Of a DNA stretch of 40,019 nt, positions 8,210 through 40,019 are shown in pieces. Every line of letters begins with the position of its first letter. The stretch's first letter is position 1. The translations under genes and the position numbers were made by a program. The stretch is from NCBI GenBank assembly GCA_902530985.1, contig CACACI010000010.1:1-40019 (forward strand). The letters run 5' to 3'. This DNA comes from an uncultured Alphaproteobacteria bacterium. GTDB taxonomy: Bacteria; Pseudomonadota; Alphaproteobacteria; Methylaequorales; Methylaequoraceae. The notes under the pieces are model-generated. The model made no database searches. It had not been told where the DNA came from and saw only the letters and a program-made list of their open reading frames with translations.

Positions 8210-8581
8210 ATGCCTACGATTAATCAATTAATTAGATCACCTAGATCCAAACAGTTAAAAAGGAATAAGGTGCCAGCTTTAGAGAGATGTCCCCAAAAGA
8301 GAGGGGTTTGCACCCGAGTTTACACAACTACACCAAAAAAACCCAACTCAGCGCTTAGAAAAGTTGCAAGAGTTAAGTTAACCAATGGATTTGAAGTAAC
8401 TAGTTATATTCCTGGTGAAGGGCATAACTTGCAAGAGCATTCCGTTGTATTAATAAGGGGTGGGAGAGTTAAAGATTTGCCTGGCGTACGATACCATGTC
8501 TTAAGAGGTATTCTTGATACGGAAGGTGTGAAAAATAGGAAACAAAGAAGATCCAAATATGGAGCTAAAAGACCAAAGTAA
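8210..8581 (+). CDS. rpsL: 30S ribosomal protein S12
   Basis: S12 of the 30S decoding centre, 123 aa, the usual bacterial length. The [12 protein letters not shown] loop keeps the wild-type Lys and the [12 protein letters not shown] loop is intact, including the Asp that RimO methylthiolates in many bacteria, so the sequence looks streptomycin-sensitive. A GAGGAAAAG ribosome site precedes the ATG. It is the first gene of the str block (rpsL-rpsG-fusA-tuf), and a possible promoter lies upstream. Confidence 0.98.
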
Positions 8582-9061
<480 letters not shown>

Positions 9062-9065
9062 TTAA

Positions 9066-11147
9066 ATGACTAGAAAGACAGAATTAAATAATTATCGAAA
9101 TATTGGTATTATGGCTCACATTGATGCTGGTAAGACTACAACTACAGAGAGAATATTATATTATACTGGAGTTTCTCATAAAATTGGAGAAGTGCATGAT
9201 GGTGCAGCTACAATGGATTGGATGGAACAAGAACAAGAAAGAGGTATAACTATAACCTCTGCTGCTACAACATGTTTTTGGAATGATAAGAGAATTAATA
9301 TAATTGATACACCAGGCCATGTGGATTTTACTATTGAAGTTGAAAGATCCCTGAGAGTTCTTGATGGGAGTGTTTGTGTATTTGACTCAGTTGCAGGAGT
9401 TGAGCCACAGTCAGAGACAGTATGGAGACAAGCTGATAAATATGGAGTGCCTAGGATGTGTTTTGTAAATAAAATGGATAGGATTGGGGCAAACTTTTTC
9501 AGATGTGTAGATATGATTGTTGAAAGATTAGGTGCAAATCCTTTGGTTTTACAACTTCCCCTCGGCTCAGAAGCAGAATTTAAAGGTGTGATTGATTTAG
9601 TGCGGATGAAAGCAATAGTATGGCAAGAAGAAACTTTAGGAGCAAAGTTTGCTGATGAAGAAATTCCAAGTGATATGGTTGATGAGGCCAATAAATATAG
9701 AGAGAGACTTATAGAAACTGTTGTTGAAATGGATGACTCTATTATGGAAAAGTATCTTGATGGCACACTACCTTCTGAAGAACAATTAAAATCTTTAATT
9801 AGAAAAGGTACAATTGATAGTAAGTTTGTTCCTGTTTTGTGTGGAAGTGCTTTTAAAAATAAAGGTGTACAACCAATGCTTGATGCGGTGGTTGATTTTT
9901 TGCCATCACCTCTAGACGTTCCTGCAATTAAAGGAGTTAAATACCAGAAAGAAGATGAAGCAATCACTAGACAGAGTTCAGATTCAGAACCTTTTTCTGC
10001 TCTTGCTTTTAAAATAATGAATGATCCATTCGTAGGTTCCCTTACATTCATGAGAGTTTACTCTGGAAAGATAGAAGCAGGTAGTTCTGTTCTAAACTCA
10101 GTAAAAGATAAAAGAGAAAGGTTTGGAAGGATGCTACAGATGCACTCAAACTCTAGAGAGGACATTAAAACTGCTTATGCTGGAGATATTATAGCTGTTG
10201 CAGGATTAAAAGATACAACTACTGGGGATACATTATGTGAAGCTGAAAATGCAGTTATATTGGAAAGAATGGAATTTCCTGACCCAGTAATAGAAGTTGC
10301 TGTTGAGCCAAAGACAAAAGCTGATCAAGAGAAGATGGGTATAGCTCTCCAACGATTAGCAGCTGAAGACCCATCCTTCAAAGTAAGTATAGACCACGAA
10401 TCTGGTCAAACTGTAATGAAAGGTATGGGTGAGCTTCATTTAGAAATTTTAGTTGATAGAATGTTAAGGGAATTTAAAGTTGATGCAACTGTTGGTGCTC
10501 CTCAAGTTGCATACAGGGAAACAATTACTCAACCAACATCCATTGATTACACACATAAAAAACAATCTGGTGGTGCTGGACAGTTTGCAAAGGTAGTTAT
10601 GAATTTTGAACCGCTTGAAAAAGGAGGAGGGTTTATCTTTGAAAGTAAAATAGTAGGAGGTAGGGTGCCTAAGGAATATATACCAGGAGTTGAAAAGGGT
10701 TTGAAAGCTTCCACAGAAACTGGTTTCCTGGCTGGATTTCCAGTTATAGATTTTAAATGTACCTTGGTAGATGGTGCTTATCATGATGTTGATTCAAGTG
10801 TTATGGCCTTTGAAATTGCTGCAAGAGCTGCATTCAGAGAAGCAATGCCAAAAGCTAAAGCTGTTTTGTTAGAACCAATGATGAAAGTAGAAGTGGTTAC
10901 ACCTGAAGAATATATGGGTGATATTATTGGAGATTTGAATTCGAGAAGGGGGCAAGTTTCAGGTATGGAGCAAAGGGGAGTTAATCATGTTGTAAATGGC
11001 ATGGTACCTCTAGCTAATATGTTTGGATATGTTAACAATTTACGCTCTATGAGCCAGGGTAGGGCAAGTTATACAATGACTTTTGATCACTATGAAGAGG
11101 TACCTCATAATGTTGCAGAGGAAGTCAAAGAAAAAGTATCTGGTTAA
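9066..11147 (+). CDS. fusA: elongation factor G
   Basis: Translocation GTPase EF-G, 693 aa, five-domain family length. The GTP-binding motifs are AHIDAGKT (residues 17-24), DTPGHVDF (81-88) and NKMD (135-138). Domain IV, which enters the A site, and the C-terminal GDLNSRRG segment are present. It lies between rpsG (4 bp upstream) and tuf (23 bp downstream). A long reading frame antisense to its first kilobase is a coding shadow. Confidence 0.98.
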
Positions 11148-31807: not shown

Positions 31808-31895
31808 GCGGTCGTGGCGGAACTGGTAGACGCGCAACGTTGAGGTCGTTGTAGGTGTAAAGCCTGTGGAAGTTCGAGTCTTCTCGACCGCACCA
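31808..31895 (+). tRNA. tRNA-Leu (anticodon GAG)
   Basis: A type II tRNA of 88 nt with encoded CCA. Acceptor arms GCGGTCG (31808-31814) and CGACCGC (31885-31891) pair perfectly, with discriminator A. The anticodon stem CAACG/CGTTG encloses loop TTGAGGT with anticodon GAG at 31842-31844. A long variable arm lies at 31852-31867, and the T arm is GGAAG-TTCGAGT-CTTCT. There is no room for a separate promoter in the 8 bp after pccA, so it is probably transcribed with pccA or from a promoter inside its 3' end. A recombinase-like gene starts 13 bp downstream. Confidence 0.97.
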
Positions 31896-31908
31896 ATTAT
31901 TTTTAATT

Positions 31909-33177
31909 ATGAAATATATATACAAGCATGGCAATCAATACTGGTACCAAAGAGCAGTTCCAGTTAATCTATATAGTATTTTAGGGAAGAAAACTTTAAA
32001 AATATCATTAAAAACTAATAAAATACCTATAGCTATTAAAAGAGCAAAATTACAAGCTTTAGAGCATAAAAAAATGTTTGGTGATCTAAGCAAAAAATCA
32101 AAAAAAATATTAAAAAAATTATTTGGAAAAAATAGTTTTGATTTAAAAAAATATACACTCGAGTTTATGGATGATTACGATGATTTAGTAAACAAACTAT
32201 TGTATAGTAAATCAGAATTAATAGATTTTTTTAGTAATGTAAGTAGGCAGGAGATTGAGAATAAGTCACTTGATAAAATACTTCTTGATAGTAGCAACAA
32301 CCAAAATTCATTATTACTAAGCAAGGTTTTTGGAGAATATTTGGAACTAAAAAAAATTGATAATAATATAATAAAATTATCGACAATTAAGAAATCTATT
32401 TCTTTGATGATAGAAATTTGCAGTGACAAACCTTTAATGGAATATTCTAGTTTCGATGCTAAGATATTTAGAAACCATTTTATAAAATTAAGAAAAATAT
32501 CAACAGGAAGAAGACATCAATCTAATATTCAAAATTTATTTTCAGTTCTTTTTAAAAAATATTCAATCGAGAAGAAAAACCCCTTTTCAGCACTTAAATG
32601 GCCAGAGTATAAAAAATCTAAATTGGTAGAAAGTTTTTCTATAGAAGAATTGAAGAAACTCAAGTCATTTTGTTTGGAGAATAATGAGCTTGTAAACCTA
32701 GTCTGTGGACTAATTTTTGATACAGGTTGTTCTTTTAATGAAATTTTAGGTTTAAATAATGAAGATATAGATTTAGATAAATATAATGCGTATATAGTCA
32801 TTCGTTCAAATTCGAACAGAAGTATTAATAATATTTATAAAAGAAGAACAATCCCTCTTGTAGGTGTTTCATTGGAAATAATGAAAAAAATTAAAAAAAA
32901 TAATGATAATGATTTGCTTTTAAAGAATTACTTCAAAAAAGAATTTTTGAAAGAAAAGTCATCCATAGAAAATCAACTTAACGTAAAAATTAAAAAATTA
33001 ACTAACGGAAAAACTTGTGTCTCTTTCAAATATTCAATTATTGAAAGACTTAAAGAAATAGGTTGCCCTGATGATATTATTTCTGAAATAATAGGAGTAG
33101 TTAAAAAACAATCATTTTACCACGATGAAATTTCTTTTGATAATAAATCTAGTTGGTTAAATCAAATTATGATTTAA
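31909..33177 (+). CDS. tyrosine-recombinase-like (integrase) protein with degenerate active site
   Basis: 422 aa, intact frame. The N-terminus (YIYKHGNQYWYQRAVPVNLY, then LGKKTLKISLKT) is typical of proteobacterial phage/island integrases, followed by a core-binding domain (about 135-225) and a C-terminal region with the catalytic-domain fold pattern (FDTGCSFNEILGLNNEDIDL, KRRTIPL, ERLKEIGCPDDIISEIIG). The catalytic set is largely lost: Ser275 stands where the first Arg should be, Val371 at the His and Lys374 at the Arg of HxxRH, and Val397 at the LLGH His. Lys311 and a candidate nucleophile Tyr404 remain. It starts 13 bp after tRNA-Leu, the classic attachment position, but no cargo genes or second att site are visible. 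It may be a decaying remnant or a re-used DNA-binding protein; recombinase activity is unlikely. Confidence 0.75.
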   Translation: MKYIYKHGNQYWYQRAVPVNLYSILGKKTLKISLKTNKIPIAIKRAKLQALEHKKMFGDLSKKSKKILKKLFGKNSFDLKKYTLEFMDDYDDLVNKLLYSKSELIDFFSNVSRQEIENKSLDKILLDSSNNQNSLLLSKVFGEYLELKKIDNNIIKLSTIKKSISLMIEICSDKPLMEYSSFDAKIFRNHFIKLRKISTGRRHQSNIQNLFSVLFKKYSIEKKNPFSALKWPEYKKSKLVESFSIEELKKLKSFCLENNELVNLVCGLIFDTGCSFNEILGLNNEDIDLDKYNAYIVIRSNSNRSINNIYKRRTIPLVGVSLEIMKKIKKNNDNDLLLKNYFKKEFLKEKSSIENQLNVKIKKLTNGKTCVSFKYSIIERLKEIGCPDDIISEIIGVVKKQSFYHDEISFDNKSSWLNQIMI

Positions 33178-33195
33178 TCAATTGGTTTTAGTATT

Positions 33196-33228: not shown

Positions 33229-34596
33229 ATGTCAAAATTTCAATCTAACAATCAGGATTATTTTAAACCAGAGAATATAAATAGTTTTATTGAGTTAATT
33301 GAAAAAGAAGAGAGTAAAAAGCTCTTTAATATCGTCAAAGATTTTCATCCATCTGAAATAGCTTACTATATTCAAGCATTTAGTGAAAATCATAGAAAAA
33401 AATTCATAGCAACTTTAGCTAATGACTTCGATCCAAGTATTTTAGTTGAATTGGAGCCAAACTTTCTAGAAAAGATAATCGATGAATTTGACTTAATTGT
33501 TCTTTCAAGAGCTATAAATGAATTGAATTCAGACGATGCAGCTTCAATTATAAATTTGCTTGATTTAGGCAGGAAGAATAAAATCCTTTCCAAGATTTCT
33601 TCTAAAAATAGGATTTCAATTGAAGATAATTTAAGTTACAAGGAAAATTCAGCTGGAAGACTTATGCAATCTGAAATTGTTAAAATCCCAATAGATTTAA
33701 ATGTTGGGCATGTTATAGACTTTCTTAGAAAAAAAAAAAAAAATCTGCCAGAGGTATTTTATGATTTATTTGTTATTGATAGTGATGACATATTAGTTGG
33801 TACAGTTACCTTGAGTAAAGTCATTTGTTCTTCAAGGATTAAAAAAATATCACAAATTATGAAAAAAAACCATGAATCAATCCATGCATCAATTGATCAA
33901 GAAGAAGTAGCAGATATTTTTAGAAAAAGAAACCTAACATCATTAGCAGTTGTAAATGATAAAAAAAAACTTCTTGGTGTTATTAATGTTGATGATGTTG
34001 TAGATGTAATTGATACAGAGGCAGAAGAAGACTTATTGAAATTAGCTGGTGTTGGGGAACAAAGTTTTTACGGAGCTATTTTATCAATATCTAAAGCAAG
34101 ATTTACATGGCTATTTTTTAATCTTATTGCTGCTTTTGTAGCGGCTTATGTTATAAAAAACTTTGAAGAAACAATTCAGAAATTTGCATTGCTTGCCGCG
34201 CTTATGCCTGTTATTGCATCTATGGGAGGTTGTTCTGGAACACAATCGTTAACAACTGCAGTTAGAGCAATTGCAATGAAACAACTTACATGGTCAAATG
34301 CTTTTCGTTCAACTGGAAAGGAAGTATTAGTAGGTTTTCTAAATGGATTTATTTTTTCGTTAGGTTCGTTTATTATTACATTCTTTTGGTTTGATGACTT
34401 TAAATTAAGCTTTGTAATAGCAATCTCTTTATTATTAAATCTGATTTTTGGGTCATTTTTTGGGGCATTTATTCCTATTATGCTCTCTAGGTTTGGTATA
34501 GACCCAGCATTTGCTTCAGGAGCTTTTGTAATAACGCTGACCGATATTATAGGTTTTTTAATGTTTTTAACTTTGGCTTCGATATATCTTATTTAA
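33229..34596 (+). CDS. mgtE: MgtE-family magnesium transporter
   Basis: Inner-membrane Mg2+ channel, 455 aa, normal MgtE length. A cytosolic helical N domain (about 15-140) is followed by two CBS domains (about 145-260) that sense Mg2+, then about five membrane segments from residue 290 to the end. The pore signature appears as LMPVIASMGGCSGTQSLTTA; the usual Asn of GGNxGxQ is Cys335. The last helix keeps the Asp (D439) in the segment DPAFASGAFVITLTD that coordinates Mg2+ in characterised MgtE. A run of 15 A (33729-33743) encodes part of RKKKKN between the N and CBS parts. The gene converges with the lipoprotein gene, 6 bp away. Confidence 0.93.
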   Translation: MSKFQSNNQDYFKPENINSFIELIEKEESKKLFNIVKDFHPSEIAYYIQAFSENHRKKFIATLANDFDPSILVELEPNFLEKIIDEFDLIVLSRAINELNSDDAASIINLLDLGRKNKILSKISSKNRISIEDNLSYKENSAGRLMQSEIVKIPIDLNVGHVIDFLRKKKKNLPEVFYDLFVIDSDDILVGTVTLSKVICSSRIKKISQIMKKNHESIHASIDQEEVADIFRKRNLTSLAVVNDKKKLLGVINVDDVVDVIDTEAEEDLLKLAGVGEQSFYGAILSISKARFTWLFFNLIAAFVAAYVIKNFEETIQKFALLAALMPVIASMGGCSGTQSLTTAVRAIAMKQLTWSNAFRSTGKEVLVGFLNGFIFSLGSFIITFFWFDDFKLSFVIAISLLLNLIFGSFFGAFIPIMLSRFGIDPAFASGAFVITLTDIIGFLMFLTLASIYLI

Positions 34597-39870: not shown

Positions 39871-39948
39871 GGTGGTTGTAGCTCAGTTGGTTAGAGCGCT
39901 GGTTTGTGGTACCGGAGGCCGGGGGTTCAAATCCCCTCAGCCACCCCA
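39871..39948 (+). tRNA. tRNA-His (anticodon GTG)
   Basis: 78 nt including the extra 5' G (39871) and encoded CCA. Acceptor arms GTGGTTG and CAGCCAC pair with one G-T wobble; discriminator C73 faces G-1, the hallmark of tRNA-His. The anticodon stem CTGGT/ACCGG holds loop TTGTGGT with anticodon GTG at 39906-39908. The T arm is GGGGG-TTCAAAT-CCCCT. Upstream AT-rich DNA (39813-39870) contains TTGTAA at 39828-39833 but no clear -10. The final 71 bp of the window after the tRNA show no feature. Confidence 0.97.
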
Positions 39949-40019
39949 TTATTAAGTAAGGTTGATCTGAGCTTTAATTTTTTATAATTTTAGAATGTTA
40001 AATTTTTGAAACCCAAAAA

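Follow-up and report, generated by a model that had tools for sequence, protein, structure and literature searches.

The gene next to tRNA-Leu(GAG) in the DNA analysed here (the window, 40,019 nucleotides from an uncultured alphaproteobacterium) encodes a protein with the fold of a tyrosine recombinase, which lost its catalytic residues long ago and, judging from its sequence, is predicted to perform neither DNA cleavage nor strand exchange. We think it fairly likely that this protein descends from an integrase that was domesticated a single time to serve as a DNA-binding protein, sequence-specific and non-cutting, which would use its arm-binding domain at three to four sites.

Domains and catalytic positions of the protein

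The ORF starts with ATG 13 nt past the encoded CCA end of tRNA-Leu(GAG), and the features of the locus are as follows (window positions).

31808..31895, + strand: tRNA-Leu(GAG), the fixed upstream neighbour (ARAGORN), which adjoins the gene in 19/19 loci holding the gene start
31896..31908, + strand: 13-nt spacer from tRNA-Leu to the start codon, here without the TGTGGTA-N4-TRTRGTA repeat
31909..33177, + strand: protein of tyrosine-recombinase fold, 422 aa, predicted to be catalytically dead and probably domesticated
31909..32088, + strand: N-terminal DUF6538 or arm-binding-type domain, residues 1-60 (profile match, conservation, model)
32314..32628, + strand: core-binding-type helical domain, about residues 136-240 (conservation, model)
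32629..33174, + strand: degenerate catalytic-fold domain, about residues 241-422 (alignment, model)
32731..32733, + strand: Ser275 at the position of catalytic Arg I (alignment)
33019..33030, + strand: VSFK (371-374) at the HxxR position (alignment)
33097..33099, + strand: Val397 at the His/Trp position (alignment)
33118..33120, + strand: Tyr404, aligned with the nucleophilic Tyr and invariant (alignment)
33149..33185, + strand: terminator-like stem-loop with a T tail across the gene 3' end (from a consensus scan only, in which shuffled sequence gives 0.3 sites of this kind on average for the region)
33229..34596, + strand: mgtE, an incidental neighbour (5/32 genomes of the order have mgtE)

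The earlier note on this DNA had described an open 422-codon frame with an integrase pattern, and both the profiles and an AlphaFold2 model indicate that the frame is real and has a tyrosine-recombinase fold. In Pfam, DUF6538 matches residues 3-59 above its cut-off (E 1e-11), and a Phage_integrase match is sub-threshold (E 0.016), while the PHROG_1 integrase profile matches the 422-aa protein with E 4e-19. The model, which was built with 17 orthologues, has a mean pLDDT of 76.8 (about 85-90 in the core), and its residues from about 133 to 422 resemble XerA, Brujita Int, lambda Int, and Tn1549 Int with VIA-align Z values of 12-15. The structure prediction suggested in the note thus agrees with tyrosine recombinases, and a core-binding and a catalytic fold are both present in the model.

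The N-terminal domain is the most conserved part of the protein, with 72% mean pairwise identity and 23/60 invariant columns, compared with 38-48% identity elsewhere (41% in the core-binding-type domain and 48%, with 22 invariant columns, in the catalytic-fold domain). It has strands at 3-7, 10-16, and 29-33 and a helix, and the model reads strand-strand-helix-strand-helix. Because intact relatives can be aligned only from about residue 130, the arm-binding role assigned to this domain rests on DUF6538, the secondary structure, and the alignment with lambda Int. Researchers have found that arm-binding domains target accessory "arm" sites near the recombination sites (PMC8138268), and our literature search found no paper that names DUF6538 together with an integrase.

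As a reference for the catalytic positions we used 18 intact alphaproteobacterial integrases from genomes of the class and the order. Compared with these, Arg I is replaced by Ser275, the His of HxxR by Val371, Arg II by Lys374, and the His/Trp residue by Val397. The first three replacements had been read in the same way from the letters alone. The fourth had been read as the loss of the His of LLGH, but among the intact relatives that are closest (GGW class) this position mostly holds Trp and not His. Intact Arg, His, and Arg residues at the active site, which would have spoken against the loss of catalysis, are therefore absent from the alignment, and the statement that almost all catalytic residues are replaced holds for nearly the whole set, but Tyr404 is kept. 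Arg was found at the position of Arg I in 0/18 relatives (the family has S, T, K, M, or N), Arg II is retained only in L013-L015, and the K-beta position, which is Asn307 in this protein, varies across the family. Tyr404 and Glu278 are each invariant in 18/18.

The conserved Tyr404 might indicate an active recombinase whose active site was rebuilt from this residue and other conserved Arg or Lys residues, as Arg299, Arg304, Arg313, Lys368, and Arg380 are invariant as well. We consider this very improbable, because the positions of Arg304, Arg313, and Arg380 are largely common to intact integrases that have Arg I, and these residues are thus inherited and not new, whereas the true catalytic positions vary freely. 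Moreover, the prophage repressor MrpR also keeps the Tyr but has no recombination activity (PMC10516654).

Inheritance, selection, and chromosomal place of the gene

Orthologues were searched in 60 genomes, and single-copy orthologues were found in 20 of them, all inside the family of the window and none outside. The branch that carries the gene belongs to the HIMB59/AEGEAN-169 marine Alphaproteobacteria, and full-length orthologues come from seven of its genera. All 18 full-length copies are free of stops, and the other 17 are 36-58% identical to the window protein. Among the pairs listed whose dS is below 1, the dN/dS ratio (Nei-Gojobori) was 0.12-0.29 across the whole protein, and for residues 1-60 it was mostly 0.03-0.14. 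The sequences therefore show purifying selection on the dead integrase, which is strongest on the N-terminal arm-binding-type domain, and the dN/dS measurement proposed in the earlier note gave values far below 1.

These results bear on the simplest alternative, namely that a decaying integrase is seen before frameshifts have built up. The missing catalytic residues would agree with such decay, but intact frames in 18 full-length orthologues at this level of divergence, dN/dS far below 1, and a conserved N-terminal domain leave it with next to no credibility. The very recent inactivation that the earlier note had offered as one option is ruled out, because Arg I is missing in 18/18 stop-free orthologues from seven genera under purifying selection, and the relatives with many frameshifts that simple decay would produce at this locus were not found. 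The other option, re-use as a DNA-binding or architectural protein, has gained from the constraint by domain, the fixed locus, and a clade-specific repeat, although the role need not be limited to the tRNA-Leu locus.

The tRNA-Leu(GAG) gene lies 6-47 nt upstream in the 19 loci, and the conserved order is PccB-PccA-tRNA-Leu-gene-(mgtE)-lipoprotein-GPX-isochorismatase-GlnA, with mgtE optional. In seven sister genomes (genera g2, g4, g5, g6, and g9), the gene is missing from an otherwise identical order, and carriers and non-carriers are split at 100/100 in the rpoB tree. One rpoB frame, L106 (G013:C4:123247-127092), is read with one internal TGA, possibly an assembly error. The mgtE gene is patchy (5/32 genomes, always at the tRNA-Leu locus) and directly follows tRNA-Leu in G017. 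Thus, of the order tRNA-Leu, gene, mgtE that was to be checked across the clade, the adjacency to tRNA-Leu is conserved and that to mgtE is incidental, and the location of the gene between the two, which the earlier note had stressed, carries no weight.

The gene is present in every genome of the gene-bearing branch with an assembled locus, and the five genomes without a match also lack an assembled tRNA-Leu(GAG), so that no true loss of the gene was seen. One of these five, G010, has only another, intact integrase. The nearly identical, intact integrases L051 (G010:C9:24210-24755) and L052 (G006:C1:114003-114542) read TGAR...HSIRK...GH...Y at another locus, indicating that intact integrases also occur in the genus of these two genomes. 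In the protein tree, the 18 dead proteins form one group as opposed to the intact integrases, and the long branch that joins them makes any finer placement unsafe.

No attachment-site duplication of at least 11 nt was found around the gene in the window, and the only match given by the same search was one of 12 nt within the tRNA-Leu of L039. Neither a tRNA duplication nor cargo was found downstream of the gene, and no prophage was found around it; it sits among conserved host genes on both sides. The search of viral contigs and phage records likewise found no relatives of the protein. The contig of the window ends 71 nt past tRNA-His (window 39872-40019), and for several other single-cell contigs, too, the end comes no more than about 5 kb beyond the dead-integrase gene.

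An 11-bp direct repeat in the gene-bearing branch

We report here a repeat, TGTGGTA-N4-TRTRGTA, that is, by its distribution in the sequences, specific to the gene-bearing branch and located at three to four fixed chromosomal places per genome. Its two copies are in direct orientation with a period of 11 bp, which is about one helical turn. In genera g3, g7, g8, and g11, tRNA-Leu and the gene are separated by 42-47 nt, and this spacer carries TGTGGTAGAAATGTAGTATT or a close variant. The pattern TGTGGTANAAWTRTRGTA with at most one mismatch gave 36 sites, all in the gene-bearing branch (21/25 genomes), compared with 0 in the seven sister genomes and 0 for the reversed pattern in 32 genomes. A looser form with a free 4-nt centre gave 25 exact sites and 0 in non-carriers, compared with three matches of the reversed control; one of the 25, in G023, lies inside a coding sequence and is probably due to chance. 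G023 (83% complete) represents the basal gene-bearing genus g12, in which the gene is present and no clear site was found. The motif patterns were refined partly on genomes that were later counted, and the independent checks are the sister genomes, the reversed control, and the gap in the PWM scores. In 1.37 Mb of the nearly whole genome G019, the PWM scan gave four sites with 31.8, 29.2, 28.7, and 21.1 bits, whereas the next score was 14.2 bits and the maximum of the reversed control was 14.7. Since the column identity is 0.82-0.86 in the motif and 0.24-0.50 in the flanks, each site is a footprint in unconserved flanks. Site counts are limited by the incompleteness of the SAGs and MAGs. The window itself contains weak matches with two mismatches only. 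The motif also occurs in 23 stretches of viral contigs, some of which repeat a single sequence several times over; none lies near a recognisable integrase, and these matches were dismissed as chance or unrelated. The sites fall into four classes.

Site A: between tRNA-Leu and the dead-integrase gene; genera g3, g7, g8, and g11
Site B: shortly past tRNA-Ser(GCT), at a distance of up to about 10 nt in genera g3 and g8 and of about 65-70 nt in g1; a MAPEG-family gene runs convergent with it
Site C: 0-2 nt past the stop of a 210-aa secreted-type ORF (ORF210)
Site D: 9 nt past a TonB-dependent receptor gene; seen in G019

All four classes have one orientation relative to the upstream gene, and in G019 they lie 1-26 nt past gene 3' ends. 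Positions that follow a gene 3' end by 0-30 nt and are on the correct strand make up 1.4% of the strand-positions in G019, and because the sites are intergenic to begin with, this placement is suggestive and not decisive. The genome of the window has site B at G000:C7:8360, site C at G000:C11:20354, and no site A, and in genus g1 the spacer of the gene itself is without the site. The motif is not a by-product of the sequence that codes for the MAPEG C-terminus (NTTFLPQ) in g1, because the site lies outside that frame in G008 and g8. It does not depend on ORF210 either, as site C is kept in G018 between the same neighbours where ORF210 was not found. ORF210 (L213, about 8480-9103; L177, about 867-1490) is of secreted type without a Pfam match and occurs in g1, g3, g8, and g10; G018, G023, G025, and the seven non-carrier genomes gave no match to it. 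A general RNA hairpin at the sites was rejected, since strong folding is seen at site D alone, where the site (L232, reverse strand, G019:C6:73781) overlaps the strong hairpin TGGTAGTAAT...ATTACTACCA (z -4.9). A Fur-family-like gene lies not far from this hairpin.

The order tRNA, repeat, integrase gene at site A, the strongest constraint on the arm-type domain, and the branch-wide co-occurrence suggest that the repeat is a former arm-type site and is probably bound by the dead integrase. Because gene and motif arose on the same single branch, their correlation is one evolutionary event, unreplicated across lineages, and this co-occurrence would also suit a domesticated DNA-binding protein whose gene is controlled, in four genera, by another regulator of the same branch to which the repeat belongs, for instance a response regulator of the OmpR/PhoB type. 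Sites of this family are usually 11-bp direct repeats, and genus g12 has the gene without a clear site. We nevertheless regard this explanation as unlikely, because tRNA-Ser and ORF210 precede two of the four site classes, which in some genera fall between convergent genes and not at promoters, and because one site lies exactly in the spacer from the tRNA to the integrase gene, which is the classical position of an arm site.

We also doubt that the dead integrase guards attachment sites by sitting on tRNA-Leu(GAG), tRNA-Ser(GCT), and other gene 3' ends and blocking related mobile elements. The 3' ends of tRNA and other genes are common integrase targets, the placement and orientation of 4/4 sites in G019 would fit such a role, and no insertion at tRNA-Leu was seen in carriers. 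However, non-carriers are likewise free of insertions there, and no phage or viral-contig relative with the protein or an integrase-linked motif was found.

In the domestication that we favour, the ancestor of one HIMB59/AEGEAN-169 branch would have carried, next to tRNA-Leu(GAG), an inserted integrase with an arm-binding domain, and this integrase would have lost its mobile element and catalytic residues and then become a host DNA-binding protein in a single event. The N-terminal domain would bind TGTGGTA-N4-TRTRGTA as a former arm-type site, and the core-binding and catalytic folds may have stayed for oligomerisation or clamping without cleavage. The repeat at site A overlaps a promoter-like pair, TTGATA-N16-TAGTAT, a few nt before the start codon (9/12 matches, which alone is not above shuffles), so that binding would cover the likely promoter and autorepression is plausible. 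At sites B, C, and D, classical repression of initiation is disfavoured, because these sites lie past gene 3' ends and some lie between convergent genes, and a roadblock, an insulator, or an anchor that bridges sites would fit better. That a cleavage-dead host integrase on about four private repeats, each just beyond the 3' end of a tRNA gene (Leu or Ser) or of one of a few protein genes, acts as a roadblock, insulator, or bridging protein is a tentative proposal, for which no described counterpart was found.

Comparison with known systems

The order of arm-binding domain, core-binding domain, and catalytic fold is shared with lambda Int, Tn916/Tn1549 Int, and the alphaproteobacterial DUF6538 integrases. 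Like the arm-binding-domain integrases of phages and ICEs, the gene lies immediately past a tRNA gene, and the repeat between tRNA and gene resembles arm-type sites; unlike them, the protein has its catalytic Arg, His, Arg, and His/Trp replaced, and it is inherited vertically with neither an element nor an attachment duplication. Thus, genes annotated as integrases beside tRNAs need not signal mobile elements. Yeast Ndc10 and the Crypton-derived proteins are domesticated, recombinase-derived DNA-binding proteins of eukaryotes, and these are unrelated events. The plant ALOG proteins are similar in that a mobile-element recombinase was re-used for DNA binding, but they stem from a separate eukaryotic event and retain the DNA-binding domain only (PMC3537659). 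The full text of the AEGEAN-169 description (PMC10308909) mentions no integrase or recombinase. Because the set of candidate sites is small and concrete, a single purified protein and a handful of 40-bp DNAs make the role of the dead integrase for its host directly testable.

The closest analogy is MrpR (YopR), the master repressor of the Bacillus prophage SPbeta, which has a tyrosine-recombinase fold with V/S in place of Arg I and the Tyr kept, and which represses through a 15-bp motif (SPBRE) inside the prophage (PMC10516654). The SroF complex (repressor of phi3T, PDB 9rgl) is also among the structural matches of our model. The present protein is likewise a recombinase fold that lost Arg I and the HxxR residues and kept the Tyr, and the clade-specific repeat at three to four sites is a candidate for a short motif that it would bind. 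Unlike MrpR, which starts with the core-binding domain, it has an N-terminal arm-binding-type domain, its gene is a vertically inherited chromosomal one and not a prophage repressor of lytic genes, and the sites proposed for it lie at 3' ends of tRNA and other genes of the host and not within a prophage. We therefore liken it to MrpR by fold and residue loss, as a dead recombinase that was apparently re-used for DNA binding, and do not file it in the MrpR family. The authors of the MrpR study expected a wider occurrence of such recruitment (PMC10516654); loss of catalysis with re-use for DNA binding is documented there for a prophage repressor, and the case proposed here would concern a gene inherited vertically in seven genera of abundant, streamlined marine bacteria.
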